Of a stretch of DNA of 24,414 bases, positions 557 to 20,230 are shown in pieces. How positions within the stretch are numbered: the stretch's first letter is position 1; each line of letters starts with the position of its first letter. The notes beneath the pieces were generated by a model that did not search any database, was not told where the DNA came from, and saw only the letters and a program-made list of their open reading frames with translations. The stretch spans positions 1-24,414 of IMG/VR virus record IMGVR_UViG_3300032282_003366. One strand, 5' to 3'. The position numbers were made by a program, and so were the translations under genes. The DNA is from a virus.

Positions 557-1298
557 ACTCGCTGAACCATCAGACTATCCAGTACTAGATCTTGTTTTAT
601 GTGGTACTGAGCTTGCTTGTGAACTTTTAGAACCATTTAAACATCAAAAAGAAAAGCCCACATCTGAACAGCATAGTTTTAAATCAATTTTTGGTTTAGA
701 CCATAAGTTCTATTATATAATCAATAAATACAAAAATAAAGATATTGTAAACATAGAAGTTGGTATAGGTTACTTAATAGAACAAGATGATAAAGTTCTT
801 TTAAGAAGATTTAAACCTATGGCTTTCAAACAGCCCAATTGCAATATTGTTCCTGTTAATACAGCCGTAGATGTTTTTAGGCCACAAGGTTCAGATGAGT
901 ACATAATTGTAAGTTCATATGCCCCCACTCTATTAACAGAATTATTAATAGATCCAAATTGCACAATAGCTTCTTCTAAAGAATGCCCCATAAATGTTAT
1001 CGAAATAGAAAATAATTCAGTCTTAGGAAGATTAGATGGTGATATTCAATCTTTATCACTCAATAATATTTCAGATAGGACTATAGATTTACTATCTTCG
1101 TATACAAAACAATTAGTTCTAAGTTGTTCTCAACTTGATGTTAAAAAAATAAAAACCAGTTCTCTACAACTCAAACCATCTAATCGCCCACAATCTAAAG
1201 AAGGCACACTAATATATAACGAAAAAAATAAAACTATAGAATATTATGATGGATCACAGTGGAGAACTCTAATATGGAGTATACTAACTGATTCATGA
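522..1298 (+). CDS. Fibre-like structural protein (putative)
   Basis: This 258-residue protein has no recognised domain over most of its length. Its last 45 residues carry a pattern common at the ends of phage fibre and baseplate proteins: a 'P..RP.S.EGTLIYN' stretch followed by 'YYDGSQWRTL'. The repeated short strands just before it (about 165-215) fit a beta-rich stalk. I therefore infer a virion or virion-accessory role. The ATG at 522 was chosen over an in-frame TTG at 516 because AGGA lies 8 bases upstream of it. The stop overlaps the start of the sigma-like gene by four bases (ATGA), so the two are probably translationally coupled. Confidence 0.7.
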   Translation: MKLKTSNLQAIELAEPSDYPVLDLVLCGTELACELLEPFKHQKEKPTSEQHSFKSIFGLDHKFYYIINKYKNKDIVNIEVGIGYLIEQDDKVLLRRFKPMAFKQPNCNIVPVNTAVDVFRPQGSDEYIIVSSYAPTLLTELLIDPNCTIASSKECPINVIEIENNSVLGRLDGDIQSLSLNNISDRTIDLLSSYTKQLVLSCSQLDVKKIKTSSLQLKPSNRPQSKEGTLIYNEKNKTIEYYDGSQWRTLIWSILTDS

Positions 1299-1789
1299 AG
1301 ATTCCAAAAAATATGACAGAAAAAGAGGTATTACAAAAAATAAACATTGTCGTTAATAGAATCGCCCCCAAGTATACATTTAACGGTTACGACGTTGATG
1401 ATATAAAACAAGAGGCTTTTATTATATGCATGGACGCATTAGATAGATACGACGAACTTCGGCCACTTGAGAATTTCCTATCTGTAAACTTATCTAATCG
1501 TCTCAAAAATTTCGTTCGTGACAACTATTACACAAAGAACGACGAAGAGAAAAAGAAAATATTAAATCCTACACAGTTGTCTTATGAAGATAACATACAA
1601 TCATCCCATATAGATAATGATAAGAATATAGATCTTAACTCAATAAAAACTATTATAGACAAACATCTACCATCTAAATATCGTTCTGATTATCTTAAGA
1701 TTATTAATGATGTTTATGTTCCAAAAAAACGTAAAACCGAAATATTCTCTCTTATTAAGAATATATTAAAGGAAAATAATGATGCGTAA
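1295..1789 (+). CDS. Sigma-70-like factor with region 2 only
   Basis: This is a 164-residue protein. Residues 11-80 resemble sigma region 2: a 'DVDDIKQEAFIICMDALDRYD' type core-binding helix, then a helix with 'FLSVNLSNRLKNFVRD' that in sigma factors contacts the -10 DNA. Residues 115-160 are basic and helical, but I cannot fit them to a normal region 4 helix-turn-helix. This build recalls phage T4 gp55, a short sigma that needs only a -10 element. The inferred role is to direct host RNA polymerase to phage genes, possibly through the GTGTATAAT motif seen twice in this window. It overlaps its neighbours by 4 and 11 bases. A non-sigma DNA-binding protein is a less likely alternative. Confidence 0.75.
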   Translation: MKIPKNMTEKEVLQKINIVVNRIAPKYTFNGYDVDDIKQEAFIICMDALDRYDELRPLENFLSVNLSNRLKNFVRDNYYTKNDEEKKKILNPTQLSYEDNIQSSHIDNDKNIDLNSIKTIIDKHLPSKYRSDYLKIINDVYVPKKRKTEIFSLIKNILKENNDA

Positions 1790-2569: not shown

Positions 2570-3130
2570 ATGGTTTATCCTTACGAAGAAAAAAGCGAAC
2601 ACGGAATTCCTTGGCACACAACTTTTATAGGCAAGTTGATGCAGCATAATTATTGGCTATACGCAGTAGTTGATAAAGTTATGGTTGCTAATCCACAAAT
2701 TAGAAGTATTATTGAAATTGGAACTGGTAATGGCGCACTAACTACTGTTTTTGGTTTATGGGGCATAAAAAGAAATATACCAGTATTAACTATAGATCAT
2801 CAGTTATTATATGATAAAGATATACTATCTAAATTAGGAGTTGAAGTTTTACAAACAGATGAATTTTTAGACTCAACCAAAGAAAAGATTTTATCAGTAA
2901 TAAATAATGAGCCAACTTGGGTCTATTGTGACGGCGGATTTAAAACAAAAGAATTTCTTACATATGCTCCATTAATACCAGTGAATTCTATTATTTCAGC
3001 ACACGATCTTGGAGTAGAATTTTCTGATAAATTAGCATTGCAGCAACTAGGACCAAATATTGTAGAACCATACCAAAAAGAACTCTGGACAGAATTAAAT
3101 ATACAACTTGCATTATTTAGGAGGATATGA
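2570..3130 (+). CDS. Class I methyltransferase-fold protein (CmcI / cephalosporin-hydroxylase-like)
   Basis: This is a 186-residue protein with Rossmann-type motifs. 'IIEIGTGNGALT' (47-58) is the SAM-binding glycine loop and 'LTIDHQ' (73-78) supplies the acidic residue after strand 2. 'WVYCDGGFKTKEF' (117-129) and 'AHDLG' (144-148) resemble the CmcI/rhamnosyl O-methyltransferase group. Members methylate or hydroxylate small molecules or sugars. The substrate cannot be read from the sequence. The next gene makes a deoxysugar nucleotide and the two overlap by one or four bases, so a sugar O-methyltransferase role is plausible. There is no signal peptide. The start follows the previous stop by two bases, with no good Shine-Dalgarno sequence. 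Confidence 0.65.
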   Translation: MVYPYEEKSEHGIPWHTTFIGKLMQHNYWLYAVVDKVMVANPQIRSIIEIGTGNGALTTVFGLWGIKRNIPVLTIDHQLLYDKDILSKLGVEVLQTDEFLDSTKEKILSVINNEPTWVYCDGGFKTKEFLTYAPLIPVNSIISAHDLGVEFSDKLALQQLGPNIVEPYQKELWTELNIQLALFRRI

Positions 3131-4188
3131 TGAAGGCGATTGTTTTTGGAGCAACTGGTCAGGATGGAAGCCACTTGGCGGATTTACTTTTATCAAAGAA
3201 TTATGAAGTTATTGGCGTATCCAGACGTTCTAGCACAGACAATACAAAAAGATTATCTAAATGTATTGGTAATAGTAGATTCAAGCTGGTCGAAGGCGAT
3301 ATTACCGATGTTAGTAGTGTAATAAATACTTTAATATCTAACGAAGATGTAGATGAAATCTATAATCTAGCAGCACAATCGCATGTAGCAACCTCTTTTA
3401 AACAACCAGCTTTGACTTGGGATATTACCGGCAAGGGCTGTATCAATATACTACAAAGCATTATTGATTTATCTATGTTTGATGTAAGATTTTACCAAGC
3501 TTCTTCAAGCGAGATGTTTGGAAGCTCTTATGTCGAAGATAAAAAAAATGGCCTTAAGTATCAAGATGAAAATACGAAATTCATGCCTAATTCTCCATAC
3601 GCTATCGCAAAATGCGCTGCGCATTATGCGGTTCGTATGTACAGAGACGCTTACAATCTTCATGCTAGTTCTGGAATTTTGTTTAACCATGAGGGTCCAA
3701 GGCGTGGAGATAACTTTGTAACTAAGAAAATAATTAACTGGATTCAAGACTTTACCGCTTGGATGAATAAGTATAAAATTGAATTCCATCAATTGGTTTT
3801 ATCTGGAGATTATATTTATGGCCCGGTTCAAGGTATGTCTTATAAAAAACTAAGATTAGGTAATTTAGAAGCTTTTAGAGATTGGGGTTATGCTGGAGAT
3901 TACGTTGAAGCTATGTGGCTAATGTTACAACAGGAAACTCCAGATGACTATGTAATATGTACTGGTAGAACACACACTATAGCAGAGTTTTTAGATATAT
4001 CATTTAATATGGTAGGCTTAACAGAGTGGCGCAATCTGGTTGTTGTAGATCCAGAATTTTATAGACCATCTGAAGTCCCATACTTGTGCGGAAATTCAAA
4101 TAAGGCACAGCAAAAGCTAGGATGGAAGCCAAAACACACACTAGAAGATCTAATAAAACTTATGTTATTAAGCAATGAGAAACTTTAA
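3130..4188 (+). CDS. gmd: GDP-mannose 4,6-dehydratase
   Basis: This enzyme of the extended short-chain dehydrogenase family converts GDP-D-mannose to GDP-4-keto-6-deoxy-D-mannose, the precursor of GDP-fucose, GDP-rhamnose and related sugars. The 352-residue product has the NADP loop GATGQDGSH (7-15), DITD (57-60), NLAAQSHV (79-86), catalytic S126/E128 in 'ASSSEMFG', Y157 and K161 in 'YAIAK', and 'NHEGPRRG' (186-193). 'LGN..AFRDWGYAGDYV' (243-259) is the usual sugar-nucleotide motif. About 25 extra residues (roughly 212-240) separate the last two motifs compared with ordinary Gmd. AGGAGG at 3119-3124 is 5 bases from the ATG at 3130 but only 2 from the one at 3127, so I prefer 3130. No reductase, epimerase or glycosyltransferase is visible here, so the host or another part of the phage must finish the pathway. 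Confidence 0.92.
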   Translation: MKAIVFGATGQDGSHLADLLLSKNYEVIGVSRRSSTDNTKRLSKCIGNSRFKLVEGDITDVSSVINTLISNEDVDEIYNLAAQSHVATSFKQPALTWDITGKGCINILQSIIDLSMFDVRFYQASSSEMFGSSYVEDKKNGLKYQDENTKFMPNSPYAIAKCAAHYAVRMYRDAYNLHASSGILFNHEGPRRGDNFVTKKIINWIQDFTAWMNKYKIEFHQLVLSGDYIYGPVQGMSYKKLRLGNLEAFRDWGYAGDYVEAMWLMLQQETPDDYVICTGRTHTIAEFLDISFNMVGLTEWRNLVVVDPEFYRPSEVPYLCGNSNKAQQKLGWKPKHTLEDLIKLMLLSNEKL

Positions 4189-4423
4189 AGTTTATCTGGA
4201 TCTAACAGACATTTATCCACAAATTAAAAAATTTTTCCTGAGAGAATATGTAGTACAATATCCATTAATTTTTATAGAAGCTGACGATCCAGACGATGCC
4301 TGTTATATGGTAATATATAGATTAATCAAACTTATTATGGACCAAGATCCTTCTATAGAGACTAGAATACTATGTAAACAAATCAAAAGATTAGTTCGCG
4401 TAGACAAGGTAATATCTCTATGA
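4175..4423 (+). CDS. Hypothetical protein, 82 aa
   Basis: I do not recognise this protein. It starts with a beta-like segment ('FKVYLDLTDIYP'), has a hydrophobic-aromatic middle, an acidic 'EADDPDDACYMV' stretch (35-46) and a basic, helical C-terminus ('CKQIKRLVRVDK'). There is no signal peptide or membrane segment. It overlaps gmd by 14 bases and the HNH gene by 4, so it is embedded in the same translation-coupled run. The context suggests no particular role beyond proximity to the nuclease and packaging genes. Confidence 0.75.
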   Translation: MRNFKVYLDLTDIYPQIKKFFLREYVVQYPLIFIEADDPDDACYMVIYRLIKLIMDQDPSIETRILCKQIKRLVRVDKVISL

Positions 4424-4674
4424 AAAGAAACTATAATGATGATGCATATACTCAGTGGAGAAAAGATATATTAAAAAGAGATGGTAAAAAATGCAAAATG
4501 CCGGGATGTGGATCTAAGTCTAGATTACAGGTTCATCATATTAGAAAATGGTCTACAGCTAGCTCTTTAAGATATGATTTATCTAATGGTATAACACTAT
4601 GCAAAAAATGCCACGATTCTATCAGAGGAAAAGAAAACCACTATGTTGGTCTTTTTAGTTTATTAGTGAAATAA
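4420..4674 (+). CDS. Small HNH endonuclease
   Basis: This is an 84-residue HNH nuclease. Visible are a zinc site of C25/C30 with C61/C64, the paired H39-H40 in 'LQVHHI', N56 in 'DLSNG', and H65 after 'CKKC', which complete the beta-beta-alpha metal fold. HNH proteins near terminase genes are known partners in DNA packaging in cos-type phages such as HK97 (gp74). This one lies four genes before the large terminase, so a packaging role is plausible. A free-standing homing nuclease is the alternative, but the gene is neatly embedded with an ATGA overlap and a one-base gap on either side, which favours a resident function. Confidence 0.85.
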   Translation: MKRNYNDDAYTQWRKDILKRDGKKCKMPGCGSKSRLQVHHIRKWSTASSLRYDLSNGITLCKKCHDSIRGKENHYVGLFSLLVK

Positions 4675-4675
4675 T

Positions 4676-5161
4676 ATGGAAAAATTTATTGTTATCAAAG
4701 ATACCAGAGAACAAGAAGGATACTTCTTTAGCGCATTTAATACATGCGCCGGTATGATAGAACGTAAATTAGATACTGGAGATTATTCTATAGAGGGTCT
4801 AGAAGATAAAATCTGTATAGAACGTAAAGGATGTGTTGAAGAGTTAGCAGTTAATCTTGGTCAAAAGAAGTATGCATTTTTAGATGAAATAGAAAGAATG
4901 AAAACTTTTCCACATAAATTTCTTATACTAGAATTTAATATTGAAGATGTGGCTAAGTTTCCAGATGAAACAAGAATACCAATCAAGAACAAATCTTCTG
5001 TAAAAATAACTGGTAAATATATACTAAAGTGTTTATTTGAATTTGCACTATATAATAATGTACAAATTTTATTCTGCGGTAACAAATATAATGGATTTTT
5101 AGCAGTAAGTAGTATCTTAAAAAGAGTTCATGAAATGTATACCACTGGGAGAAAAAAATGA
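4676..5161 (+). CDS. ERCC4/XPF-type nuclease
   Basis: This is a 161-residue protein with the ERCC4 nuclease pattern: D9 in 'DTREQ', 'GDYS' (35-38), and 'ERK' (49-51), followed by 'FLDEIERM' (68-75). Together these are the metal-binding acidic and basic residues of the XPF/Mus81 family, which cuts branched or flap DNA. It contains only the nuclease domain and no helicase or helix-hairpin-helix part. In phages such proteins are thought to resolve replication or recombination intermediates. It starts one base after the HNH stop and overlaps the ClpP-like gene by four bases. An exact substrate cannot be inferred. Confidence 0.85.
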   Translation: MEKFIVIKDTREQEGYFFSAFNTCAGMIERKLDTGDYSIEGLEDKICIERKGCVEELAVNLGQKKYAFLDEIERMKTFPHKFLILEFNIEDVAKFPDETRIPIKNKSSVKITGKYILKCLFEFALYNNVQILFCGNKYNGFLAVSSILKRVHEMYTTGRKK

Positions 5162-5811
5162 TGTCCGAGCCAGAAATACTAAAAGATTTTCATGACTACG
5201 GAGCTAATCTTGCTACTAGAGAGATATTTCTCCATAATCATTATCATACAGAGGATAACGAAAATCCGGGTGTAGAATACAGAATGTCTAATACTTTTAT
5301 TAAGAATTTGAGAGCATTAGATAGTAAAAGTGATTCACCAATAGTTATACATATGCAGAGTATAGGCGGTGAGTGGGACGATGGCATGGCTATGTTTGAT
5401 GCAATAACAATGTGCAGATCATATGTAACCGTTGTAGCATATGGTCAGGCTTCTTCAATGAGTAGTATTATTTTCCAAGCTGCGGATTGGAGACTCATGA
5501 CTGTCAATTCTCATTTTATGTGCCATTATGGATCTTCTGGTTTTGATGGTAGTTATCTTGATAATCAGAATTTCACTGCATATGATAGAAGATGCGCAAT
5601 AAAAATGTTAGAAATTTATTCTGCTAAATGTGTAAATGGTCAATATTTTAAAGACAAATTTGGAAAGAAGCCTACAGAGAAACAGGTTAAAAATTTCTTA
5701 ACTAGAAAATTAAAAGATGGTAATTGGTACTTGAGTTCAGAAGAAGCTGTATACTATGGCTTTTGTGACGATATAATAAAAGATTGGAATCAACTCAAAA
5801 AGGCTATATGA
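5158..5811 (+). CDS. ClpP-like serine protease (S14 family)
   Basis: This is a 217-residue protein with the Clp protease fold. 'IHMQSIGGEWDDGMAMFDAI' (64-83) matches the first handle and oxyanion loop. S100 in 'GQASSMSS' is the likely nucleophile, H123 in 'MCHYGSSG' the histidine, and D187 in 'KDGNWYLSSEEA' the acid, followed by 'YYGFCDDI'. The spacing from His to Asp is longer than in bacterial ClpP. In phages this family often matures proheads. Here, however, a separate prohead-protease candidate sits between portal and capsid, so this one may process another virion protein or work with host Clp ATPases. GGGAG at 5147-5151 supports the start at 5158. The stop overlaps the terminase start by four bases. 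Confidence 0.87.
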   Translation: MMSEPEILKDFHDYGANLATREIFLHNHYHTEDNENPGVEYRMSNTFIKNLRALDSKSDSPIVIHMQSIGGEWDDGMAMFDAITMCRSYVTVVAYGQASSMSSIIFQAADWRLMTVNSHFMCHYGSSGFDGSYLDNQNFTAYDRRCAIKMLEIYSAKCVNGQYFKDKFGKKPTEKQVKNFLTRKLKDGNWYLSSEEAVYYGFCDDIIKDWNQLKKAI

Positions 5812-7805
5812 AAAACAACCTTAAAACTATAGACGAATCTTGGCTTGGTTTAGATACAGTAGATTCTGATATCTTTAACCCTATGGTTTTTGCTAACCCC
5901 TCTCATGATGATTTTGAAAATAGATTTGCTTGGCTTATGAGTAGGCCAGAATATTTATCTTTCTTCTGTCATCATATATTAAATATACAACTTCTTCCAT
6001 CTCAATCATTAATTTTGTATGAACTATGGAACCGTAAGTTTCCCATGTTGATTGGAAGCCGTGGACTTGGTAAGTCTTTTAAGCTCTCATTATATTCGAT
6101 CTTAAGAGCTATTATGATACCAAAAAGAAAGATTGTTGTAGTTGGAGCAGCATTTAGACAGTCTAAGGTACTATTTGAATATATGGAAACTATATGGCGC
6201 AATTCTCCAATGCTAAGAGAAATGTGTGATAATGATAGTGGCCCAAGAAGAGATACTGATAGATGTGTTATGAAAATAAATGATAGCACAATAACATGTT
6301 TACCACTTGGTGATGGTCAAAAAATTAGAGGTCAAAGAGCTAATGATATTATCGCTGATGAGTTCGCTTCTATTCCTAGAGATATTTTTGAAAATGTTGT
6401 TGCTGGTTTCGCCGCAGTTAGTGCAGATCCAGTACAAAATGTTAAACGCATGGCTGCTAGAAAAAAAGCAGCAGAGTTAGGCATTGAAATAGAAGATGTT
6501 TCTCCCGATAGGAGTGGAGAAAAGAAAGATAACCAAATTATTATATCTGGTACTGCTTATTATGATTTTAATCATTTTGCTACATACTGGAAGAAATGGA
6601 AAGCTATTATTAAAAGCAGAGGTAATCCAGCAAAGTTAAGAGAAGTATTTGGTGGAGAAGATTACCCAGAAGATTTTGATTGGACTCAGTATTCTATTAT
6701 TCGTATGCCGTATGAATTATTACCAAAAGGCTTCATGGACGCTGATCAAGTAGCAAGATCAAAAGCTACTGTTCATACAGGTATATATCAAATGGAATAT
6801 GGGGCTTGTTTCACAAGAGATAGCCAAGGATTTTTCAAAAGATCTCTTATAGAATCTTGTGTTATATCTCAAAATAACGAAATAAAAGATTCTCAAGGTA
6901 AGCCAATAACATTTGAGGCAACGCTAATTGGCGATCCTAATAAACGATATATATTTGGAGTTGACCCAGCATCTGAAGTTGATAATTTTAGTATTGTTGT
7001 TTTAGAAGTAAATCCAGACCACAGAAGAATAGTTCACTGCTGGACTACCACAAGATCAGAACATAAAGAAAAAGTTAAAAAGGGATATTCTAGTGAAACA
7101 GATTTCTATTCATACTGCGCTAGAAAAATTAGAGATCTTATGTTACTATTCCCGTGCATACATATTTCAATAGATGCCCAAGGTGGTGGTATTGCAATTA
7201 TAGAATCTCTACACGACCAAGACAAGATTAAAGAGGGTGAATTGCCAATATGGCCTGTAATAGATGACGAGAAACCCAAAGATACTGATGGCGAAAGAGG
7301 ATTGCACATTATAGAGCCATGTCAATTTGCTAAATATGAATGGTTATCTGAATCAAATCATGGAATGAGAAAAGACTTTGAAGATAAAGTTTTATTGTTC
7401 CCTTTCTTTGACTCTATTAGTCTTGGTTTATCAAATTCAGAAGATGCTATTAAAAATAGAATGTTTGATACACTTGAAGAATGCGTTATGGATATTGAAG
7501 AACTAAAAGATGAATTAAGCATGATACAAATGACACAAACAACTAATGGCAGAGATAGATGGGATACTCCAGAAGTTATAGTTGGCACTGGTAGAAAAAG
7601 CAAGATGCGAAAAGACCGATATTCTGCATTATTGATGGCTAATATGGCCGCTAGAGTTTTACAGAGAACGCCAACGCAAGAAGCGTACAATTTCTATGGA
7701 GGTTTTGCTAGCGGAAGAAGCGATGTTGAACAAAAGTCGCAAAATAATGAAAAGTTATACAACGGACCAAGCTGGTTTGCAGAACAAATGAAAGATGTGT
7801 ATTAA
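5808..7805 (+). CDS. terL: Terminase large subunit
   Basis: This is the packaging motor and nuclease, 665 residues long. The ATPase half carries Walker A 'GSRGLGKS' (83-90) and Walker B 'IIADE' with D184-E185. The nuclease half shows the RNase H-like acidic triad: D386 in 'FGVDPA', D456 in 'SIDAQGGG', and D603 in 'RKDRYSAL'. It cuts concatemers and pumps DNA through the portal encoded just downstream. The ATG at 5808 was chosen over an in-frame TTG at 5784 because AAAAAGG lies just upstream and the ATG overlaps the ClpP-like stop by four bases. A charged segment around residues 215-240 ('KKAAELGIEIEDVSPDRSGE') lies between the two halves. Confidence 0.95.
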   Translation: MKNNLKTIDESWLGLDTVDSDIFNPMVFANPSHDDFENRFAWLMSRPEYLSFFCHHILNIQLLPSQSLILYELWNRKFPMLIGSRGLGKSFKLSLYSILRAIMIPKRKIVVVGAAFRQSKVLFEYMETIWRNSPMLREMCDNDSGPRRDTDRCVMKINDSTITCLPLGDGQKIRGQRANDIIADEFASIPRDIFENVVAGFAAVSADPVQNVKRMAARKKAAELGIEIEDVSPDRSGEKKDNQIIISGTAYYDFNHFATYWKKWKAIIKSRGNPAKLREVFGGEDYPEDFDWTQYSIIRMPYELLPKGFMDADQVARSKATVHTGIYQMEYGACFTRDSQGFFKRSLIESCVISQNNEIKDSQGKPITFEATLIGDPNKRYIFGVDPASEVDNFSIVVLEVNPDHRRIVHCWTTTRSEHKEKVKKGYSSETDFYSYCARKIRDLMLLFPCIHISIDAQGGGIAIIESLHDQDKIKEGELPIWPVIDDEKPKDTDGERGLHIIEPCQFAKYEWLSESNHGMRKDFEDKVLLFPFFDSISLGLSNSEDAIKNRMFDTLEECVMDIEELKDELSMIQMTQTTNGRDRWDTPEVIVGTGRKSKMRKDRYSALLMANMAARVLQRTPTQEAYNFYGGFASGRSDVEQKSQNNEKLYNGPSWFAEQMKDVY

Positions 7806-7846: not shown

Positions 7847-9940
7847 ATGAGCAACGAAGAAATGATAACTTGGAATGACAATGATTTACCCAGCAAAGCA
7901 GAAGCTTTTGCGCAGTTTTCTGATAATATTGAATCATATACAGGTTTACCCAAAGCTCAAGGTACTCACTATAGAAATTTCGTAGACATTGAGCCAAATA
8001 GATCTGTTCGCCCCGGTTTTAATCCTAGCGATTATTATGCCTTTAGACCAGATGAAGCCGTTCCCCAGCAGCAGCGCCGTGCAATTAAAATGTGCATGGA
8101 CGCTTATGATAAAGTTGGCATAATTCGTAATATCATTGATCTTATGGGTGATTTTGGAAGTCAAGGAATAGAGATTGTTCATCAAAATAAAAGCGTTGAA
8201 AGATTCTATAAGCAATGGTTTAAAAGCGTTAACGGCAAAGAAAGATCAGAAAGATTTCTAAATAATCTTTATAAAGCTGGAAATGTTATTGTATATCGAA
8301 GTTATGCAAATATGACTCCAGAATTAACAACATATATGAAGTCTTTATCTAAAGATATTAGAGTAGAAACACCTAATGTTCCAGAAAATCAGATACCTTG
8401 GAGATATAATTTTTTTAATCCATTAACTGTAAAAATGAAAGATGGAAATTTATCTCTATTCATGGGCGCACAAAACTATACCTTAAGTACAAATACATTT
8501 TTTGATAAGTTTCCAAATGGAGATATTCCAAGCACTGTTTTAGATACTCTACCAACAGCAATTAAACAAAGTCTAAAGCGTGGTGAAAAAGAAATCCCAT
8601 TAGATCAAGCTAGACTAAGCGTATTTCATTACAAGAAAGATGATTGGCTACAATGGGCTAATCCTATGATTTATGCTATATTAGATGATATTATTATGTT
8701 AGAGAAAATGAGATTAGCAGACTTGTCTGCACTTGATGGAGCTATTTCTAACATTCGTCTTTGGACACTTGGTAGCTTAGAACACAAAATTCTTCCAAAC
8801 AAAGCTGCTATTAACAAACTACGAGATATTTTATCAAGTAATGTTGGCGGTGGTACTATGGAATTAGTATGGGGTCCAGAACTAACATTCAAAGAATCTA
8901 GTAGCGAAGTATATAAATTCTTAGGTTCTGAAAAATACACAGCCGTATTAAATAGTATTTATGCTGGAATGGGAGTTCCACCAACTCTTACTGGCATGTC
9001 AACTAATGGCGGCGGATTCACAAATAACTTCATATCACTTAAAACCCTTGTTGAAAGATTACAATATGGAAGAGATCTATTAGTAAAATTCTGGGAAAAA
9101 GAAATTGAAATTGTAAGAAAAGCTATGGGTTTTAGATATAGCGCACACATACAGTTTGATCAAATGACACTTTCCGACGAAGCCGCAGAGAAGAACTTAC
9201 TTATACAGTTAGCTGATAGAGATATTATTAGCCAAGAGACTCTGCTTGAAAGATTTAAAGAAATTCCAGAGATTGAGAAGATTAGACTTAAGAGAGAAGT
9301 TTCAGATAGACAAGATGAAGCTAATCCAAAGAAAGCCGGGCCATATCATAGCCCACAACAAAAAGAAGCTTTGGAAAAAATTGGTTTACAGTCTGGCAAA
9401 CTATTACCCAAAGATGTTGGCCTAAAATCCAGCGTTCCTACAGACGTTCTATTACAACCAAAGGGTGCTTCTCCTTTTGGCGGTAGCGGCGGTCCAACAA
9501 GTAAACAGCCAGCACCATCAAGCCCAAATGGAAGACCACCGTTAAAACAAGACGATGGTCCTAGAAAGAAAAGAATAGATAATCCAAGATCAAAGCCGGG
9601 AGTAGCAGAATTAGTTGTTTGGTCTGAAACATCTTGGGATAAAATATCTGATATATTAACTAATGCATATTTAAAATCAAACAATAAGAAGAACCTAAGA
9701 CAACTTACTAAATCAGAGTTTAATAATCTAGAACAATTAAAAGTTGATGTACTTACTAATTTAGAATTATTTAGTAATGTAGATGAATCTTGCGTTGCTA
9801 ATATACTTTCTAAAAATCTATCTACCCCTAAAGATTTCTTATCGCTATTAAAAGATAATAATATATCTATAGAAGATATGACTATAGATTCATATAGAAA
9901 GAGTGTTATTGGTTTGTATATTGAGCAAAAATTGTCATAA
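7847..9940 (+). CDS. Portal protein
   Basis: This 697-residue protein would form the ring at the capsid vertex through which DNA enters. The call rests on length, its position directly after terL, and portal-like segments in the first 480 residues: a wing-like N-terminus, 'AYDKVGIIRNIIDLMGDF', 'YRSYA', a 'DDIIMLEKMRLADLSALDG' helix, and a 'GMGVPPTLTG' segment, typical of SPP1/HK97-type portals. Residues about 494-584 are rich in Pro, Gly, Lys and Ser and look disordered. A further helical domain follows (585-697). This extension is longer than in most portals. Spacing from terL is 41 bases, containing CAATCCAA twice (7814-7821, 7826-7833). A TAGGAAAA sequence precedes the ATG. Confidence 0.87.
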   Translation: MSNEEMITWNDNDLPSKAEAFAQFSDNIESYTGLPKAQGTHYRNFVDIEPNRSVRPGFNPSDYYAFRPDEAVPQQQRRAIKMCMDAYDKVGIIRNIIDLMGDFGSQGIEIVHQNKSVERFYKQWFKSVNGKERSERFLNNLYKAGNVIVYRSYANMTPELTTYMKSLSKDIRVETPNVPENQIPWRYNFFNPLTVKMKDGNLSLFMGAQNYTLSTNTFFDKFPNGDIPSTVLDTLPTAIKQSLKRGEKEIPLDQARLSVFHYKKDDWLQWANPMIYAILDDIIMLEKMRLADLSALDGAISNIRLWTLGSLEHKILPNKAAINKLRDILSSNVGGGTMELVWGPELTFKESSSEVYKFLGSEKYTAVLNSIYAGMGVPPTLTGMSTNGGGFTNNFISLKTLVERLQYGRDLLVKFWEKEIEIVRKAMGFRYSAHIQFDQMTLSDEAAEKNLLIQLADRDIISQETLLERFKEIPEIEKIRLKREVSDRQDEANPKKAGPYHSPQQKEALEKIGLQSGKLLPKDVGLKSSVPTDVLLQPKGASPFGGSGGPTSKQPAPSSPNGRPPLKQDDGPRKKRIDNPRSKPGVAELVVWSETSWDKISDILTNAYLKSNNKKNLRQLTKSEFNNLEQLKVDVLTNLELFSNVDESCVANILSKNLSTPKDFLSLLKDNNISIEDMTIDSYRKSVIGLYIEQKLS

Positions 9941-11950: not shown

Positions 11951-12958
11951 ATGCCCATTAACAACAGACCTAGTGATGAATTCATCGCTCTCCTACGCAA
12001 GTCAGGAGATGCCGATATCAATGTTGCTTCGGCTGCTCAACGCGAGTTTGCCAAAGCTCTAGAGCTTCCTCTTCGTAAGGGTGTTCTAGTCGGTAATATC
12101 CTTGGCGATATTTTCGAAACAATCAATGTAGAAGCCGGTTCAACAACCGAATTCCCCCTCGACCTAGTTTCTCCCGGCCTTGAAGGTGAGCATGTCGCTT
12201 ACACCAATCCCGGCCACGGCAGAATTCCAGAGCGAAGCGTGGAAGGCGACTACGTGATGATTCCAACCTACACAATCGCTTCATCGGTTGACTATCTCCT
12301 TCGCTATGCCCGCGAAGCCAGATGGGATATCGTTGGTCGTGCAATGCAGGTAATGGAAGCTGGTTTTACAAAGAAGATGAATGATGATGGCTGGCACACT
12401 CTTCTCGCCGCTGGCGTTGACCGTAACATCCTCGTTTATGACGGTGATGCTACAGCCGGTCTATTCAGCAAGAGACTAGTTTCTCTTATGCAGACAGTTA
12501 TGCGCCGCAATAGCGGTGGTAACTCTGCATCAGTTGGTCGTGGCCGTCTAACAGACATCTACGTATCACCAGAGGCTTTAGAAGATATTCGTAACTGGGG
12601 TTTTGATCAAGTTGACGAAGTAACTCGTCGTGAGATCTATACCGCTCCAGCCGGTGGCGCTCCCATCACACGTATCTTCGGTGTTAATCTACGTGACCTT
12701 GATGAACTTGGCGAAGGTCAAGAATATCAGTCATTCTTTACCAATCAGCTTAGTGGCGCTGTGCAGGGTAGCGATCTTGAACTCGTCGTGGGTCTTGACC
12801 TACAGACAAGAGATAGTTTCGTTATGCCCGTCAAGGAGCAGTTACAGGTCTTCGAAGACCCAACTCTCCACCGTCAGCAACGCGCTGGCTACTATGGTTG
12901 GGCTGAACTTGGCTTTGGTGTTCTAGACAACCGTAGAGTAATTCTTGGTTCGTTCTAA
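11951..12958 (+). CDS. Major capsid protein (HK97-type fold, inferred)
   Basis: This is a 335-residue protein after the decoration gene, in the standard place for the shell protein. The middle and end have capsid-like features: 'QVMEAGFTKKMNDDGWHTLL' (130-149), 'IYVSPEALEDIRNW' and the C-terminal 'YYGWAELGFGVLDNRRVI'. Codon use differs clearly from the surrounding genes: by hand count about 20 arginines are CGN and 6 AGA. C-ending codons are also common, as expected of the most abundant phage product. A strong AAGGAGA ribosome site lies 7 bases upstream. A terminator follows 31 bases after the stop. A mature N-terminus after protease cleavage is probable, but the site is not obvious. Confidence 0.85.
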   Translation: MPINNRPSDEFIALLRKSGDADINVASAAQREFAKALELPLRKGVLVGNILGDIFETINVEAGSTTEFPLDLVSPGLEGEHVAYTNPGHGRIPERSVEGDYVMIPTYTIASSVDYLLRYAREARWDIVGRAMQVMEAGFTKKMNDDGWHTLLAAGVDRNILVYDGDATAGLFSKRLVSLMQTVMRRNSGGNSASVGRGRLTDIYVSPEALEDIRNWGFDQVDEVTRREIYTAPAGGAPITRIFGVNLRDLDELGEGQEYQSFFTNQLSGAVQGSDLELVVGLDLQTRDSFVMPVKEQLQVFEDPTLHRQQRAGYYGWAELGFGVLDNRRVILGSF

Positions 12959-12989
12959 TTAAAAGTTAGAGATTATAGCTTTTACGACT

Positions 12990-13021
12990 AGCCACCCTCA
13001 TTTACTTGGGGGTGGCTTTTT
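12990..13021 (+). terminator. Intrinsic terminator after capsid gene
   Basis: AGCCACCCTC (12990-12999) pairs with GGGGGTGGCT (13008-13017), a 10-base stem with one T-G wobble and an 8-base loop. A T run of five (13017-13021) follows. It separates the head operon from the surface-protein block. Confidence 0.9.
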
Positions 13022-13022
13022 C

Positions 13023-13031
13023 GTGTATATA
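13023..13031 (+). promoter_or_regulatory. Possible -10 element before surface-protein block
   Basis: GTGTATATA begins two bases after the terminator T run. It shares GTGTATA with the two stronger motifs and sits 44 bases before the next ATG. No -35 element is visible, as the terminator stem occupies that place. A promoter just after a terminator is logical, but the match is weaker than TATAAT. Confidence 0.3.
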
Positions 13032-13074
13032 CCAGTAGATTGTAAGTTTTGGACTTATTTCTTAGGAGACAATT

Positions 13075-13758
13075 ATGGCATCTATATCGGACTATCTTGA
13101 ATCAAAGATATTGAATCATCTTTTTAGAAGCGAAACTCTTACTAAGCCATCATCAATATCTATCGCATTAACTAGCAGTGTACCATTAGATTCTCATACA
13201 GGTTCTACATTGCCAGAATTGCCAACCGGCGTTGCTAGAGGTGCAACTATGGTAAATACTGGCTATTCTAGGCGCAATTTAGGCGCACCGTCTGGCGTTG
13301 GTGACGCAACATGGTACGCAGTTGGTGTTGATACTGTCACTGTATATTCTGTATATAGTCAAGAAACTGGAAATAGTGGTTATTTTTATCCATTATATTT
13401 ATCTCAGGATGCAGCGCAAAGTGCCGATACAAATCTTAATGCTAATGTTTATACTTTCCCAAAAACATTTCCAAATGTAAATTTTTATGCACCAAGAACA
13501 ATAGCGGTTTCTGGAGGATCTACAGATCCCGGTTATACATTATATGATGGCAATGGATTTATTAAAAATCAAAATCAAATTATTTTTGATACCGCTCTTT
13601 CTGATTGGGGTTGGGTTTCTGGTGTTGCTATTTTAGATAATCATGGTTATGGTTCTGGAAATATGTTAATGTATGCCGCTCTAAAAAATCCAAGATATAT
13701 ATACACTGGCGATAATCTCAAGTTCGATTCAAGATCACTTGAAATTAGCCTTAAGTAA
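13075..13758 (+). CDS. Small tail-associated virion protein (SDYLE..ILNHLF family)
   Basis: This is a 227-residue protein. The N-terminal 'SDYLESKILNHLFRSE' (4-19), then 'SISIALTSSVPLD', an aromatic core, and near the end 'DWGWVSGVAILDN..YGSGNMLMYAAL' followed by 'TGDNLKFDSRSLEISL', match a small beta-sandwich family often found among phage tail and fibre genes. Its exact place in the virion is not known to me. It is somewhat longer than the usual 120-200 residues because of an insert at about 75-145. A TTAGGAGA ribosome site is 5-7 bases before the ATG. It is the first gene after the terminator. Confidence 0.7.
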   Translation: MASISDYLESKILNHLFRSETLTKPSSISIALTSSVPLDSHTGSTLPELPTGVARGATMVNTGYSRRNLGAPSGVGDATWYAVGVDTVTVYSVYSQETGNSGYFYPLYLSQDAAQSADTNLNANVYTFPKTFPNVNFYAPRTIAVSGGSTDPGYTLYDGNGFIKNQNQIIFDTALSDWGWVSGVAILDNHGYGSGNMLMYAALKNPRYIYTGDNLKFDSRSLEISLK

Positions 13759-13776
13759 AAAAGAAGGTTTTAACAA

Positions 13777-16700
13777 ATGATTCTATCAAAACCACAACTG
13801 GTAGAAAATATAGTTAGAGAGATATCAGATAATTCAACATCGCAAATTTCACCATATGACATTAGACACAACCTTTTAGATATTATTGACTCTGTTCATT
13901 TATTAACAGGATCACAAAATTTAAAAGGTAAAAATTTTGATACTCCCAGCTTAAGATCTACTAAGGTTGGTGAATTTACTCTTGACAAACTTGGACTTGA
14001 TGGCTATTTATCTATAGATAATACTGCTATTGGGTATTATGCATTAAATTCAAATTATCAAGGCATAAACAATACCGCAGTAGGTTCTAATGCCTTAAGC
14101 TGTAATATTTATGGAGAAAGCAACTCTGCACTAGGTTTTCATTCTCTAGCTGGTAATACTAATGGTTTTGGTAATATTGGTATTGGTAGTTTTGCTTTAC
14201 ATAATAATAAAATTGGTAACTTCAATATAGCTCTAGGTCATGGTGCTGGCTATTACGTAGACAGAAATACTAGTAATAAATTATTTATTGCTTCTCATGC
14301 TATCGATGATGCATTTTTATGCGCTAATCCAAGCGGCATCGGTTTAGTTCCGCTAATACAGGGAGATATGTCTTCTGGAAATTTACGAGTTGGTATTGCA
14401 GTTTCTGGACTACACGAAGGCGCAACATTACAAATCAGCGGTAATTTTCATCCATCAGATTCTTTAAAGACATTTGACATTGGTCATGACACATACAGAT
14501 GGCGCAGTATTTATTTATCAAGATCTATTTATTTTACTAATAACGATCATATTACATATGACGATGCCTCTAGTAAATTTCTTATTAGCAATGATACGGT
14601 AATAGATGGTTCAGCATCTGTTGGTGGCAATACAACAGTAAGTGGTAATTTATTATCAACGGGTCATGCTAATATAGGATCTTATGCTAATATTAGTGGA
14701 GATTTAACAGTTAATGGAGATGCTAGTTTTAATGGACATCTTACTCCTGTTGCAAATAAATTATTTGACTTGGGCGAATCAGACAAACAGTGGTTGAATA
14801 TATACACTGGTAATATTTATGTTAGTGGCATAGGAAGATTTCAAAAATTTGAAGCTGTTTCACATTCTCATTATCTTAATAAAACAATTAATTTAGCTTC
14901 TAGTGGATATATTAATACTTTAGACGGCGGTGGTCCAAATAGTATATACGATTATTATAATCCAATATATGATACATCAGAACCTAGTGGATATTTATTA
15001 GAAGAAGAGTTACATGATGCTGGATTATTTATTAAATCAAGTAGAAATAAAAGTTATTCATTTATTTATCAATCACCAAAATATCTGTCAACATATATTT
15101 CTGACGCAGAAGGAGATCAGTCGTGGTACACTAATTCTTATTGGAGATCCAATATTAGCTTACTATTGAATTCTGGATGTCATATTATTGCCGATAAAAT
15201 AGCTAGTAGAAATAAACTTTCAGTATTAACTTATGATGATGGTCTTGGATTTCATATTGTTAGTGGAAAACTATATAACTCCCATACTCATAATTTAAAA
15301 CCGCTAGCTGGAATTGGTGATGTCAATTTTATTGCAAACTCTGGAACATTAATAGATTATACGTTATCATTATCTTCTCCAAACTCTGGAGTTAATATTA
15401 ATCAAAGATTTTTATCTCAAGTTTCTGGAATATCAATAGATCTAGATAATAATAAACAAAAACTAACTGGTTTTGAATTATCTTATGTGTCAGATTCCAC
15501 TCTTGATGAGCCAATGTTCTTCAATGAGCAGGCTGGTCAAAATGCTTCTAGATTTATGATAAAGTCATTGAATAATTCATCATATGCACTTAGATCTTTT
15601 ACGCTTTTACAAGATGCTACCGATGGATATGTTGGCATTAGTAATTTCGGTTATGCAGAAAATATGCTTCCAGACACTATTCTTAATATAAGAAGCACTG
15701 GAAATGCTGTTATAAGAGCAACCGCAGAAAATACCGACAACACAATCGCTGCTATTCAACTGTTAGCTCAAGAAAATTGCTTAAAGTATGGCGCTTCTTT
15801 AGAATACAATACAGATAATAATCTTTTAGATCTCAATACATATTATAATGAGACTGAAAAAACAGCACTAAGAATATCAAACAGTGGTAGTTGCATTGGT
15901 ATATTTAGTAGATCATTGCCACACGCAATGGTAACTATTGGTAATTCTGGAGAACGCGAAGCTGTTATTAGTTTATATCACTCTTCTGGGATTCCATCTG
16001 GATATGCAAATTATGGTCAAATATTTGTTAAATCACAGACAGACGAATCCAAGTCCTCATCATTAAATTTCGTTGATGCTAGCGGAAATATATTTGAAGT
16101 ATTGATGAATTCCATCGACATAGGTGGACAGAATCTAGATAAACCATTATTAGCAGATGACAACGGAAATACTTTTGGAGGTAGATTATCACCAAATACT
16201 AAATCAGCGATTCAGTCGTGTATCAGAAATACAACCGTGGGATATAGAGCATTATCATATATAAATGGCGGTAATAATAATGTCGCAGTTGGATATGCTG
16301 CTGGCAGTGGTATTACCACTGGGAGTAACAATGTTATTATTGGATCTAATTCTGCACAATCTCTTACAACTGGTTCTAGTAATATAGTTATAGGGTATAA
16401 CTTACTAAACTCATATCCTACTAGTGGTAGCAATACATTCATATTAGGATCAGATACTAATGTATTAATGTCTGGCAACATATTAACTAAAAACTTATTC
16501 ATGCCAGATGGAAAACTATCTCTTCGTAACGGCTCAAATGAAAGCCTAAAGTTGCAAGCCAATACTATAGAAGTGGTAGACGGCGGTGGGTCAAATTATC
16601 CAGACGTATCTCTATCATTTAAATTTACTGGAAATAGTACTGCTGAATTATTTAAATTAGATCACACTGCAAATCCAATCTCTAAGACTGTAACTTACAC

Positions 16701-17165: not shown

Positions 17166-17906
17166 ATGAGTGACGATTGTTTAAATGATAGTTGTTTTAG
17201 ACCAGTTGCTGCTGGCAAAAAACATGACCAATTTTTAGATATTCCAGATAGACCATATTTGTCTTTAACTACACCGCCACTAACCACTACAACGTCAACC
17301 ACAACTACAACCACTTCATATCCACAAGATTTATTAGATATTATATATCTTCCAGTTAGTGGTAAAACTTGTCCTTTTGTTACCACTACAACATCTACTA
17401 CTACAACCACCGCAAATCCTTTATATGCTTTAGGTGGGCTGAAATGTCAATTTAATTTTACAAGTAGTTCTTTAAATACTATTGCTCAAGGAGATGTTGG
17501 AATATCAATACCAATTACTAATGGCATAGTATTTCCTAATATTAGTTATACTAATGTTGGAGATAATTATAGTTTTATAGCATTTGGCTATTTCAAACCA
17601 CCATCAAGCGGCCCATATGTATTTTATACTACAAGTCAGCAAGGGAGCGCTGCGTGGTTTGATACTTTGGCTAATATTCAGAGCGGAAGAAATGCTACAA
17701 ATGCTATAATCAATAATGGAGTAACTATATCACAGCCACAAACAAAAAAAGCATCTAAAGCAATACCATTATCTGCAAACAAATTTTATCCAATTAGAAT
17801 TGTACATAGAAATACTACCGGACCCAGTTCTATGTTCTTCAGTTGGAGTGGGCCAAATATACCAGAGACAACAAATTTATCACAATATTTTTATTACGAT
17901 AGTTAG
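17166..17906 (+). CDS. Poly-Thr linker protein with PA14/GLEYA-like domain
   Basis: This 246-residue protein has three Cys in the first 70 residues (5, 10, 69). Threonine runs at 40-50 and 73-82 bracket a short Pro/Leu-rich segment. Residues about 94-246 resemble PA14/GLEYA lectin domains: 'GYFKPPSSGPYVFYTTS' with a following 'AAWFD', then 'LSANKFYPIRIVHRNTTGP', 'FFSWSGPNIPE' and 'QYFYY'. Such domains bind carbohydrates in yeast adhesins and bacterial toxins. A surface or fibre-tip role with glycan binding is inferred. There is no signal peptide, as expected for a virion protein. It starts 5 bases after the fibre gene and ends 8 bases before the next. Confidence 0.7.
   Translation: MSDDCLNDSCFRPVAAGKKHDQFLDIPDRPYLSLTTPPLTTTTSTTTTTTSYPQDLLDIIYLPVSGKTCPFVTTTTSTTTTTANPLYALGGLKCQFNFTSSSLNTIAQGDVGISIPITNGIVFPNISYTNVGDNYSFIAFGYFKPPSSGPYVFYTTSQQGSAAWFDTLANIQSGRNATNAIINNGVTISQPQTKKASKAIPLSANKFYPIRIVHRNTTGPSSMFFSWSGPNIPETTNLSQYFYYDS
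17283..17411 (+). repeat. Two ACN-rich tracts coding poly-Thr
   Basis: Bases 17283-17315 (11 codons, ten Thr and one Ser) and 17382-17411 (mostly Thr) are runs of mixed ACA, ACC and ACT. The third bases vary, so the protein sequence rather than a simple DNA repeat seems to be maintained. Triplet length changes would stay in frame. Confidence 0.85.
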
Positions 17907-17914
17907 GAATTATT

Positions 17915-20230
17915 ATGGCTAATGCTATAGGACTAGCTGGATGGAATCGCGGTGGTGGGAAAGTTGCTGCTTTTACTAAAGCTATCAATACCACAGATTT
18001 GCAGAACGACTCTTTCAAGAGATTATTAATTAATACTATTCATTGGTCATCTCGTCGTAGTAATAATAGTGTATATCTTTGTGACACAGAAAATACTACA
18101 TTTAATAATCTTATTATTAGTACGCTTAATACTGTTGGATATAACGTTGCAATTATAGAGAAATGGTACGAATTTAATGGTGCTTTTCACTTACCGTTGG
18201 TTTCTTGTTTTTTGCTATTTCCAAGTTATAACCCTCTTGGTGGCTTGAAAATGCCCGATAATGGGCAACTAGCATTGATGAATGAAGTTACCAACGGCGG
18301 CATGGGTCTTATTTTGTGCGAATGGTTTCATTATTTACAGTCTTTACCATCTAAAAGATCATTCTCTCTTGTGTCTTCAGACACTGCTGGACTGCATACT
18401 ATCTCTCCATTACAAATAGAAAATTATGTAAATTATTCAAATCCTACTAAAATTATATTATCTAAAAATATTGATGAAGATAGTATTACATATAATTTGC
18501 CAGATCAATTTAGCATAACTCCAACAACCGTTGGATATGCAGGTTCAATATCTCAAATCTCTACTATCAAAAATGGCGCTACTGTTTTTGAATATACAGA
18601 TGTTTTTTCTAGAGGCACAACAACAACCACGACAACCACAACACAAGCTCCTATTAGAAATATTAAATTTAAATTAGCAGACATTAATCTAATAGATTAT
18701 TGTGGACCACACAATATAAGTTTATCTGGCCCAAATAAAGATTATTTTCTATTAGAGAATAATCAACTATATCTTACTGAAAATACTGGACAAACAGGCA
18801 TATATAGTATTAACATTGATGTTGACGATTTATTTGTTCCACAAAGATTTGATACTATTTCACAGACATACAACTTAGAACTTGCAAGATGTGATCCAAG
18901 CATATCCAAGCCATTAGATGGGTCTGGCCCGGCATTTTCTTATAGAAGCCAAATAGTCAATAATTATAATTTACCAACTTTGTGGGGCGAAAACACTCCA
19001 TATGGTATTATTTCTCCGTTTACAGACTACTATCTTGCTGGAGATGGATCTGTAGATGACCATTTAATCTGTTGGCTTGGTGGTCAGCACGGAGATACAA
19101 ATGCGCTATGGTTGCAGATTAATAAATCTGGACCATTGAATTGGAATATTAATGCTTCTTGTGAATATCAAAGAGACTATGCTTCGTTTTGGTTAGTTGT
19201 GACTAGCGGTGTCAATAGTAATGTTAAGCCTTCACAACACGCGCAAAGCTATGGTGCAGAATTCAACAATCCAATAAAATATCAATCTTTATTTAATACT
19301 AGTTTTGAGTTATCTCAGTTAACTGGAGAAAATACAAATAATGGTGTTAGAGATATCACTGTTTCGGTTAACCCAAATATTAAAACTTTTCTTGTTGTAG
19401 CTTATTCAAAAGATGAAAAAGGAAGCAGACTAGATGATAGAATATATGGAGAATTTTTTATTGGAACCACTACAACTACCACTACCACAACTACTACTAC
19501 TACCGCCGCTCCAACTACTACTACAACTACAACAACTAGCCAACCTTTGCCAAACTATTCTTATACTGTAACATTCGCAGATGGCATTGACAATGGTTAT
19601 CCATCTCCATCTTTCTTGACGGTTGTGGCTCCACAAAATAGTAATACTTTAATGGGATATGTATATTATAATGCAAATGCTGGATTTTATTTTACACAAC
19701 CTCCGATTGTCGGAGATACTTTACCATCACCATTAAGTTTTGCTCATGAATCATTTAATAATAGATATGCTGTTTATGTTACAATGCCACAGAATGGAGG
19801 ATCTAGATTAGTTACTATAATTGGAGCGGCTACGCAGGTAACTACTACTACAACCACCACAACAACTACAACAACCACTCCAGAACCGTGTGATAATTTA
19901 ATATATATATTTTGTAAACAAACTTTACACTGCACTAAAGTAAATGGAATATGTCAACCAAATTTATCGCTAAGTACCAATGAAATTTCATTATATACTT
20001 GTTGCAATTTAAATGAGTCACAGATGAGAGTTGCATTTAATAGCCAGTTTGGTCAAACGCCAGAAGAATATTTTTCAAATTTCTGCCCTTCGCCACCATC
20101 TGAAGCTTTTTCAGATTGTCCATCCGTAGATTCTCAAAATAATTGTCAAAATATTATTAATTATGAGACTTTGATTACTATTCCATGTTTTACATATTCA
20201 TCACCAGCTATAGAGAATCCATTACCATGA
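17915..20230 (+). CDS. Multidomain virion protein: amidotransferase-like N-terminus, poly-Thr linkers, Cys-rich end
   Basis: This is a 771-residue protein. Residues about 15-230 have the look of a ThuA/class I amidotransferase-like fold: 'SVYLCDTENTTFN', 'TVGYNVAIIE', 'CFLLFPSYN' and 'ALMNEVTNGGMGLILCEW' follow the strand-loop order of that fold, with C160 in the last strand rather than at a clear nucleophile elbow, so it may not be active. A Thr run (235-243) precedes a cadherin-like segment (about 247-325), then a globular part (to 517). Thr runs at 518-530, 534-541 and 643-655 flank a beta-rich domain. The last 110 residues contain ten Cys. It is probably a surface-exposed virion component. 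Confidence 0.6.
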   Translation: MANAIGLAGWNRGGGKVAAFTKAINTTDLQNDSFKRLLINTIHWSSRRSNNSVYLCDTENTTFNNLIISTLNTVGYNVAIIEKWYEFNGAFHLPLVSCFLLFPSYNPLGGLKMPDNGQLALMNEVTNGGMGLILCEWFHYLQSLPSKRSFSLVSSDTAGLHTISPLQIENYVNYSNPTKIILSKNIDEDSITYNLPDQFSITPTTVGYAGSISQISTIKNGATVFEYTDVFSRGTTTTTTTTTQAPIRNIKFKLADINLIDYCGPHNISLSGPNKDYFLLENNQLYLTENTGQTGIYSINIDVDDLFVPQRFDTISQTYNLELARCDPSISKPLDGSGPAFSYRSQIVNNYNLPTLWGENTPYGIISPFTDYYLAGDGSVDDHLICWLGGQHGDTNALWLQINKSGPLNWNINASCEYQRDYASFWLVVTSGVNSNVKPSQHAQSYGAEFNNPIKYQSLFNTSFELSQLTGENTNNGVRDITVSVNPNIKTFLVVAYSKDEKGSRLDDRIYGEFFIGTTTTTTTTTTTTTAAPTTTTTTTTSQPLPNYSYTVTFADGIDNGYPSPSFLTVVAPQNSNTLMGYVYYNANAGFYFTQPPIVGDTLPSPLSFAHESFNNRYAVYVTMPQNGGSRLVTIIGAATQVTTTTTTTTTTTTTPEPCDNLIYIFCKQTLHCTKVNGICQPNLSLSTNEISLYTCCNLNESQMRVAFNSQFGQTPEEYFSNFCPSPPSEAFSDCPSVDSQNNCQNIINYETLITIPCFTYSSPAIENPLP
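18617..18643 (+). repeat. ACN tract, nine Thr codons
   Basis: Nine consecutive Thr codons with mixed third bases join the amidotransferase-like domain to the cadherin-like segment. Confidence 0.85.
19466..19537 (+). repeat. Double ACN tract, about 13 and 8 Thr codons
   Basis: About 13 Thr codons (19466-19504), then Ala-Ala-Pro, then 8 Thr codons (19514-19537). This is the longest linker in the window. Confidence 0.85.
19841..19879 (+). repeat. ACN tract, 13 Thr codons
   Basis: Thirteen consecutive Thr codons with mixed third bases precede the Cys-rich C-terminal domain. Confidence 0.85.

Follow-up and report, generated by a model that had tools for sequence, protein, structure and literature searches.

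A GDP-mannose 4,6-dehydratase gene in the packaging operon of an uncultured large-phage lineage and the exchangeable gene slot beside it

In an uncultured lineage of large phages, the gene for GDP-mannose 4,6-dehydratase (gmd) is a core gene located inside the packaging gene block, and the genes that occupy the slot directly upstream of it turn over fast. As a rule, gmd genes of phages are classed as auxiliary metabolic genes. Viral gmd genes, phage glycosyltransferases and virion glycans are already known (PMC9602691, PMC10611076, PMC10980836, PMC5408694, PMC12363180), and an ocean-wide survey excluded contigs bearing such sugar islands (PMC11360552). Our literature searches brought up no paper recognisable as describing a lineage in which gmd is a fixed member of the packaging operon and adjoins an exchange slot. 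Our analysis started from a stretch of 24,414 nucleotides (hereafter, the window), i.e., positions 1-24,414 of the virus record IMGVR_UViG_3300032282_003366. As this is the entire available record and comprises just 24,414 bases, further sugar genes missing from it mean little.

Genetic environment of gmd

The features of the region are compiled in Table 1. The earlier note had described two overlapping open reading frames, a methyltransferase-like gene and gmd, in front of packaging genes, and this description holds: both frames are present as claimed, and genes for an HNH endonuclease, an ERCC4-type nuclease, a ClpP-like protease and the large terminase (TerL) follow downstream. The junction of the pair, ATGATGA, is preceded by AGGAGG, and because of this junction the overlap amounts to four bases or one. 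Related proteins align with both possible lengths of Gmd, while the spacing to GGAGG favours the start at 3130. Of 122 unique gmd genes, 112 have a Shine-Dalgarno-like tetramer at most 18 bases from the start. Since gmd also overlaps the gene that follows it and the downstream genes are closely packed, the region constitutes one tight run into the terminase. In Microcystis phage MaeS, the genes around the terminase are all hypothetical and the gene preceding it measures 861 bases. From its position, the left-flank gene c4 may encode the small terminase.

Table 1. Features of the window discussed in the text
Feature	Position	Strand	Basis or remark
Left-flank conserved gene, sigma-70 region 2-like	1295..1789	+	Sigma70_r2, 27.7 bits (cut-off 24)
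Left-flank conserved gene c4, 262 aa	1779..2567	+	phrog_323 regulator match, E 8e-5
Slot cargo, putative class I SAM methyltransferase, 186 aa	2570..3130	+	ORF and motifs
GGAGG, ribosome-binding-site-like, for gmd	3120..3124	+	within 3' end of preceding gene
gmd, GDP-mannose 4,6-dehydratase (predicted), 353 aa	3127..4188 (start 3127 or 3130)	+	lineage core gene
82-aa gene, overlaps 3' end of gmd	4175..4423	+	relatives in 51 of 81 compared loci, window counted
HNH endonuclease	4420..4674	+	PF01844
ERCC4-type nuclease	4676..5161	+	PF02732, phrog_3490
ClpP-like head maturation protease	5158..5811	+	
Large terminase (TerL)	5784..7805	+	best-covering named phage match Microcystis phage MaeS, 26% identity
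Portal-like protein	7847..9940	+	position alone; no Pfam family above cut-off
Two virion-type Thr-run proteins, candidate glycan acceptors	17166..20230 (17166-17906, PA14/GLEYA; 17915-20230)	+	

Gmd is predicted to be intact

The gmd product is predicted to be an intact GDP-mannose 4,6-dehydratase, an assignment on which Pfam, a PDB search, the predicted structure and a fold search agree. With 361 bits (E 1e-107) the protein passes the cut-off of 27 for PF16363. By far the best NCBIfam model is TIGR01472, which is matched with 351 bits (E 7e-105), below its equivalog cut-off of 415, in a profile match that is split by an insert at residues 207-238. The predicted structure (pLDDT 91, pTM 0.90) has as its best PDB match 1n7g, a Gmd (E 5e-42, rmsd 2.0 Å, 45% identity). 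The cofactor motif GxxGQDG as well as S128, E129, Y158 and K162 are invariant, which bears out the earlier claim that the enzyme is intact by its motifs; the latter four correspond to S/T-E-Y-K, presumably the catalytic set of Gmd enzymes. Cellular Gmd proteins (PDB 1n7g, 1rpn) share the fold, the cofactor motif and the catalytic residues at 44-46% identity in the fold alignment. In contrast to them, the window Gmd is encoded by a phage, fixed in a packaging operon and equipped with the variable insert, about 30 residues that are extra when compared with solved Gmd sequences. The insert varies across the lineage and is mostly absent in three members (L052, L071 and L075), and it was dropped as a functional signature. 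The fixed position in the packaging operon could be taken to mean that Gmd is catalytically dead and serves packaging as a structural component or a regulator; we hold this to be extremely improbable, as all 113 unique loci in which gmd and terminase are complete retain the catalytic residues, while the insert varies freely.

gmd belongs to the core genes of the lineage

A first set of relatives, selected by Gmd similarity (the best 80 of 469), exhibited a gene order common to nearly all of them where contigs reach far enough. Such a set is biased towards gmd, and the terminase was therefore used as the query instead. When the window terminase served as bait (best 80 of at least 595), gmd was present in all 47 loci with at least 2.8 kb of upstream sequence, at a distance to the terminase of about 1.6 kb in 45 of them and of 2.4 kb in the other two; the remaining 33 of these best 80 were short upstream, with part of gmd visible in 11. 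A second scan, which employed the divergent terminase L081 and, for contigs of bacterial genomes, a terminase alignment (best 80 of at least 600), retrieved gmd in each of the 43 loci that had 2.9 kb or more upstream, namely on 40 virus contigs and three MAG contigs, at terminase identities down to 52%. Some contigs are near-copies of each other, and the 90 terminase-selected loci contain 41 + 36 = 77 distinct gmd sequences. For contrast, a Gmd-like match (E 1e-5) occurs in 230 of 50,697 phage records.

The distances between Gmd proteins follow those between terminases (Mantel r 0.81, reached in none of 500 permutations), and gmd is under purifying selection, with a median dN/dS of 0.075 and a maximum of 0.21 in 62 close pairs. 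Because gmd is co-inherited with the terminase, its recent acquisition from a host is unlikely. A sporadic auxiliary metabolic gene was rejected as well, since each of the 90 loci that were selected by terminase and extend far enough upstream carries gmd; as the scans kept the best 80 of at least 595 and of at least 600 matches, remoter members could lack it. A gene that, throughout the sample, occurs as constantly as the terminase should have a product that matters to the phage itself.

Cyanophage Gmd proteins (DSL-LC03, ACG-2014f) are 41-44% identical to that of the window. According to PMC9602691, gmd and fcl are consecutive open reading frames in S-SCSM1, and the gmd and fcl genes of S-SCSM1, DSL-LC03 and ACG-2014f are taken as auxiliary members of a cell-wall gene set. 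Unlike in these cyanophages, gmd of the lineage studied here is a core gene, lies apart from fcl and resides inside the packaging operon.

The three MAG contigs that carry the lineage are assigned to SAR202, Flavobacteriales and Gemmataceae; the assignments conflict, and so we name no host. In the SAR202 MAG (G037, locus L186, VFHP01000009), contig C9 bears gmd and a glycosyltransferase of family GT4, and contig C7 bears a GT4 and a GDP-fucose-synthase-like (Fcl-like) gene. With signature genes of the lineage on two contigs, SAR202 or else a mis-binned community may be the host.

A variable slot upstream of gmd

Between c4 and gmd, 56 of 117 unique loci have a gap of less than 130 bases, i.e., an empty slot, and 61 have a filled one of 227-2733 bases. 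Open reading frames were found in 59 of the 61 filled slots and gave 111 cargo proteins, which single linkage at 1e-4 sorted into 40 families. Among 100 loci there are 35 slot arrangements. Forty-five pairs of loci have terminases that are at least 95% identical: in 27 pairs both slots are empty, five pairs share the same cargo, and 13 differ (e.g., L142 and L150 with 98.9% terminase identity, or L004 and L006 with 98.3%). The turnover of slot cargo is fast, and we assume that exchange proceeds via recombination between the conserved flanks.

When a family is counted if its tested representative passes the Pfam cut-off, and other members by similarity to that representative, 16 of the 40 families, with 61 of the 111 proteins in 38 of the 59 loci, are of the glycosyl-, sulfo-, methyl-, nucleotidyl- or pyruvyltransferase type. 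The other 21 filled slots, including that of the window, lack a protein from these 16 recognised families. In a Pfam search of all 111 cargo proteins at 0.01, in which one protein may match several families, the matches listed (25 of 38 families) comprise Methyltransf_24 (28), TylF (13), Sulfotransfer_2, GT2 and Methyltransf_23 (8 each), FA_hydroxylase (6), GT32-type Gly_transf_sug (5), GT6 and Caps_synth (4 each), GT92 (3), GT25, CTP_transf and Volactin (2 each), GT11 (1) and others. The GT11 protein, of what we take to be the fucosyltransferase family, sits in L136.

Part of the cargo is plainly not related to glycans, i.e., the Volactin, lipid desaturase/hydroxylase and MotA-type proteins. 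Volactin-type, actin-like genes occupy the slot ahead of gmd in L268 (3039-4274, 1e-80) and L245 (459-1736, same family). The slot genes of L069, L070 and L203 are of the fatty acid hydroxylase type and of a lipid desaturase type resembling plasmanylethanolamine desaturase, which suggests lipid changes in some members. The three-gene cargo of L056 (4252-5992) starts with a MotA/ExbB-like gene, to which we attribute a ZorA-type PADLOC match, and is possibly a channel or a defence-type system. A defence island was rejected; the PADLOC matches (E 0.01) among all 111 cargo proteins were mad2 in seven (best 3.6e-8), ZorA-type in one and six other kinds of model once each.

The cargo of the window

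The slot of the window contains a single gene (2570-3130) that had been labelled CmcI-like. This label could not be upheld at the family level: in profile searches the protein passed no family cut-off, that for CmcI-like or Methyltransf_24 proteins included, two profile-profile comparisons gave no family, and PDB profile searches returned nothing useful. The structure model is poor (pLDDT 56), with alternating strands and helices, and a fold search with it gave no match at E 1e-3 or better. Judged by its motifs, the protein is nonetheless likely to be a methyltransferase: motif I of class I SAM methyltransferases (E.GTG.G) and later acidic positions are present, and E49-G51-G53-G55, D76, D121 and H145-D146 are invariant in four sequences. 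Weak KsgA/Erm-type matches (E 0.005-0.1) of the protein and two relatives fall on the N-terminal SAM-binding part. The protein has relatives, L030 and L175/L278 (73-75% identity), that likewise occupy the slot directly before gmd, and with this order repeated in L030, L175 and L278, it is not an assembly accident. A fixed Gmd-methyltransferase pair or operon, as the earlier note had it, was rejected; the slot is empty in 56 of the 117 unique loci, and gmd has many exchangeable neighbours, of which the methyltransferase is but one.

We infer that the enzyme acts on the Gmd-derived sugar. The alternative, that it is unrelated to this sugar, methylates RNA, DNA or protein or is some other enzyme, and came into the slot by chance, appears unlikely to us, even though KsgA and Erm are rRNA methyltransferases and the slot also accepts non-glycan cargo. 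These rRNA-type matches are limited to the shared SAM-binding part, and methyltransferase families are the commonest recognised cargo among the matches listed. The evidence from more distant relatives cuts both ways. The 58% identical proteins of L279/L280 stem from records, two in number, in which a search for gmd found none, and L279 is a different, T4-like phage with a T4-type head completion gene (matched by 2470 phage records). On the other hand, the relative in L279 lies two genes past a protein matching Caps_synth, Gly_transf_sug and GT2, on the same strand and in the same gene run.

Sugar pathway genes in related phages

The window record covers only 24 kb, and those of its proteins that were scanned gave no glycosyltransferase match. 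The large relatives do encode glycosyltransferases, the absence of which from the phage would have spoken against the earlier reading. At E 1e-3, GT4 matches, usually in neighbouring genes, were obtained from 19 of 24 virus records, with 18 above the cut-off, and from all 13 relatives whose records measure at least 100 kb; they were not seen in G008, G010, G014, G015 and G027, which at 41-90 kb may be fragments. GT2 was detected in 9 of 21 records, fragments possibly among them. The GT4 cluster of G022 encompasses three GT4, two FkbM methyltransferases, a GT2 and a UDP-GlcNAc 2-epimerase, and by eye the clusters of G022 and G023 adjoin replication-type rather than virion genes.

Of 38 virus records, 8 encode Fcl-like proteins, as do 6 of the 13 large ones. 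The scores of 284-308 bits lie below the NCBIfam equivalog cut-off of 500, a value reached by just 4 of 14 control genomes; the genes are mostly located in large sugar-gene clusters (five records, by eye). The other seven large records (G001, G005, G006, G022, G023, G025 and G026) contain no Fcl-like protein, no PF01370 member beyond gmd and no PF01041 member. PF01041, which stands for an aminotransferase route, is present in 7 of 24 records; with none in the seven large Fcl-less ones, this route was rejected for them. An Fcl-like gene is found in all five large records with a terminase identity of at most 72%. When the terminase is at least 75% identical to that of the window, seven of eight large records are Fcl-less, the eighth, G024, having an Fcl-like gene; the window's branch thus probably lacks a phage Fcl, and exceptions exist. 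In a phage sugar cluster near genes for virion-type proteins, sialic-acid-type genes (NeuB-like, CMP-sugar synthetase-like; by eye) were noticed at L103 of G002 (12732-14325 and nearby).

Possible functions of gmd and its slot

We lean towards the view that a hard-wired deoxysugar donor and exchangeable tailoring enzymes together build a phage glycan, probably on virion proteins. Some members of the lineage would use an Fcl-like phage reductase to turn the Gmd product into GDP-L-fucose; in others, either the host or the Gmd enzyme would reduce the keto-sugar, unless it is used otherwise. Phage glycosyltransferases, i.e., the GT4 enzymes of every large relative and others in the slot, would then transfer the sugar, and the swapped slot enzymes, a putative methyltransferase in the window and sulfo-, glycosyl- or pyruvyltransferases elsewhere, would alter the finished glycan. 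The acceptor would most likely be a virion protein, and swapping would vary the particle surface as O-antigen loci vary that of bacteria. In this scheme, we infer the timing, the final sugar, the acceptor and the benefit. The earlier proposal of a methylated deoxysugar survives as far as a tailored glycan is concerned, in keeping with the glycan enzymes in the slot, the GT4 genes and the Fcl-like genes of large relatives, but not with respect to a fixed methyltransferase partner. A more far-reaching version remains tentative, and we would not yet count on it: throughout the lineage, synthesis of a deoxysugar donor would be built into the virion-assembly operon, the glycan would be changed by swapping one to several slot genes between two core genes, and Gmd might form GDP-D-rhamnose where Fcl is lacking. 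If true, this would be a phage counterpart of O-antigen serotype switching. The slot provides a ready comparative test, as near-identical phages with different tailoring enzymes should differ in their glycan.

Known systems offer partial precedents. The chlorovirus PBCV-1 is a virus of eukaryotic algae, whereas the lineage described here consists of bacterial viruses, and to our knowledge no exchange slot adjoins its gmd. According to PMC5408694, PBCV-1 produces its own GDP-deoxysugars with a viral GMD that reduces its own product to GDP-D-rhamnose, and its capsid bears fucose and rhamnose. By analogy, such a reduction is possible in Fcl-less members of the lineage. Glycosyltransferases of the mycobacteriophages Che8, Corndog and Myrna act on capsid and tail tube proteins, and the excerpt of the article reporting this mentions neither Gmd nor a cargo slot (PMC12363180, citing Freeman 2023).

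Instead of its own particle, the phage could remodel the host surface, with Gmd feeding host lipopolysaccharide or capsule synthesis and the slot enzymes altering the surface against superinfection or adsorption to debris. The cargo does resemble O-antigen tailoring genes, G022 has its UDP-GlcNAc 2-epimerase, and cyanophage gmd and fcl are taken as cell-wall synthesis genes (PMC9602691). However, none of 24 records contained the one flippase family searched for (PF01943; 13 of 14 control genomes) or the initiating transferase PF02397 (9 of 14), though host enzymes or other flippases could serve, and gmd lies in the packaging block wherever contigs reach, so its expression presumably comes late for superinfection exclusion. 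We rate this explanation as improbable. Far less credible still is a transfer of the sugar to modified bases of phage DNA. Such a role would fit the location of gmd next to packaging and nuclease genes, and phages with arabinosylated or pentose-modified DNA are reported (PMC6024577, PMC12838424). Against it, the thymidylate-synthase/dCMP-hydroxymethylase family PF00303, which covers one route to modified bases, was found in 0 of 24 records (9 of 14 control genomes), on which basis DNA glucosylation of the T4 type was rejected, and sulfo-, pyruvyl- and many glycosyltransferase families better suit branched glycans. The three results of 0 of 24 argue mildly against a surface polysaccharide made completely by the phage and against T4-style DNA glucosylation; cytoplasmic protein glycosylation is the simplest reading that they leave.

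Threonine runs and other features of virion-type proteins

The earlier note had singled out long threonine runs in downstream virion proteins as candidate acceptors for O-linked sugars. The runs are real in the window, where five of them (at least nine Thr in 12 residues) occur in two proteins and use all four Thr codons, but they are not general. Of seven structural regions, all from gmd carriers, three possess such runs (window, G025 and G014), and none were seen in the matched regions of G022, G023, G001 and G005. Threonine runs as the general acceptor were consequently rejected; they may be acceptors in some members and are not the reason for gmd. One of the two proteins (17166-17906) combines its runs with a PA14/GLEYA domain. 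Directly upstream, an 1127-residue protein (13777-17160) gave no match in a Pfam search and, by eye, displays NTAVGxxAL-type repeats like those of trimeric adhesin heads. The open reading frame that starts at 22032 has a Phage tail repeat-like (PTR) match and extends past the end of the record; within it, positions 24204-24414 consist of 2.5 copies of an 84-base tandem repeat (99%), which possibly reflects fibre-length variation or an end-of-contig repeat.
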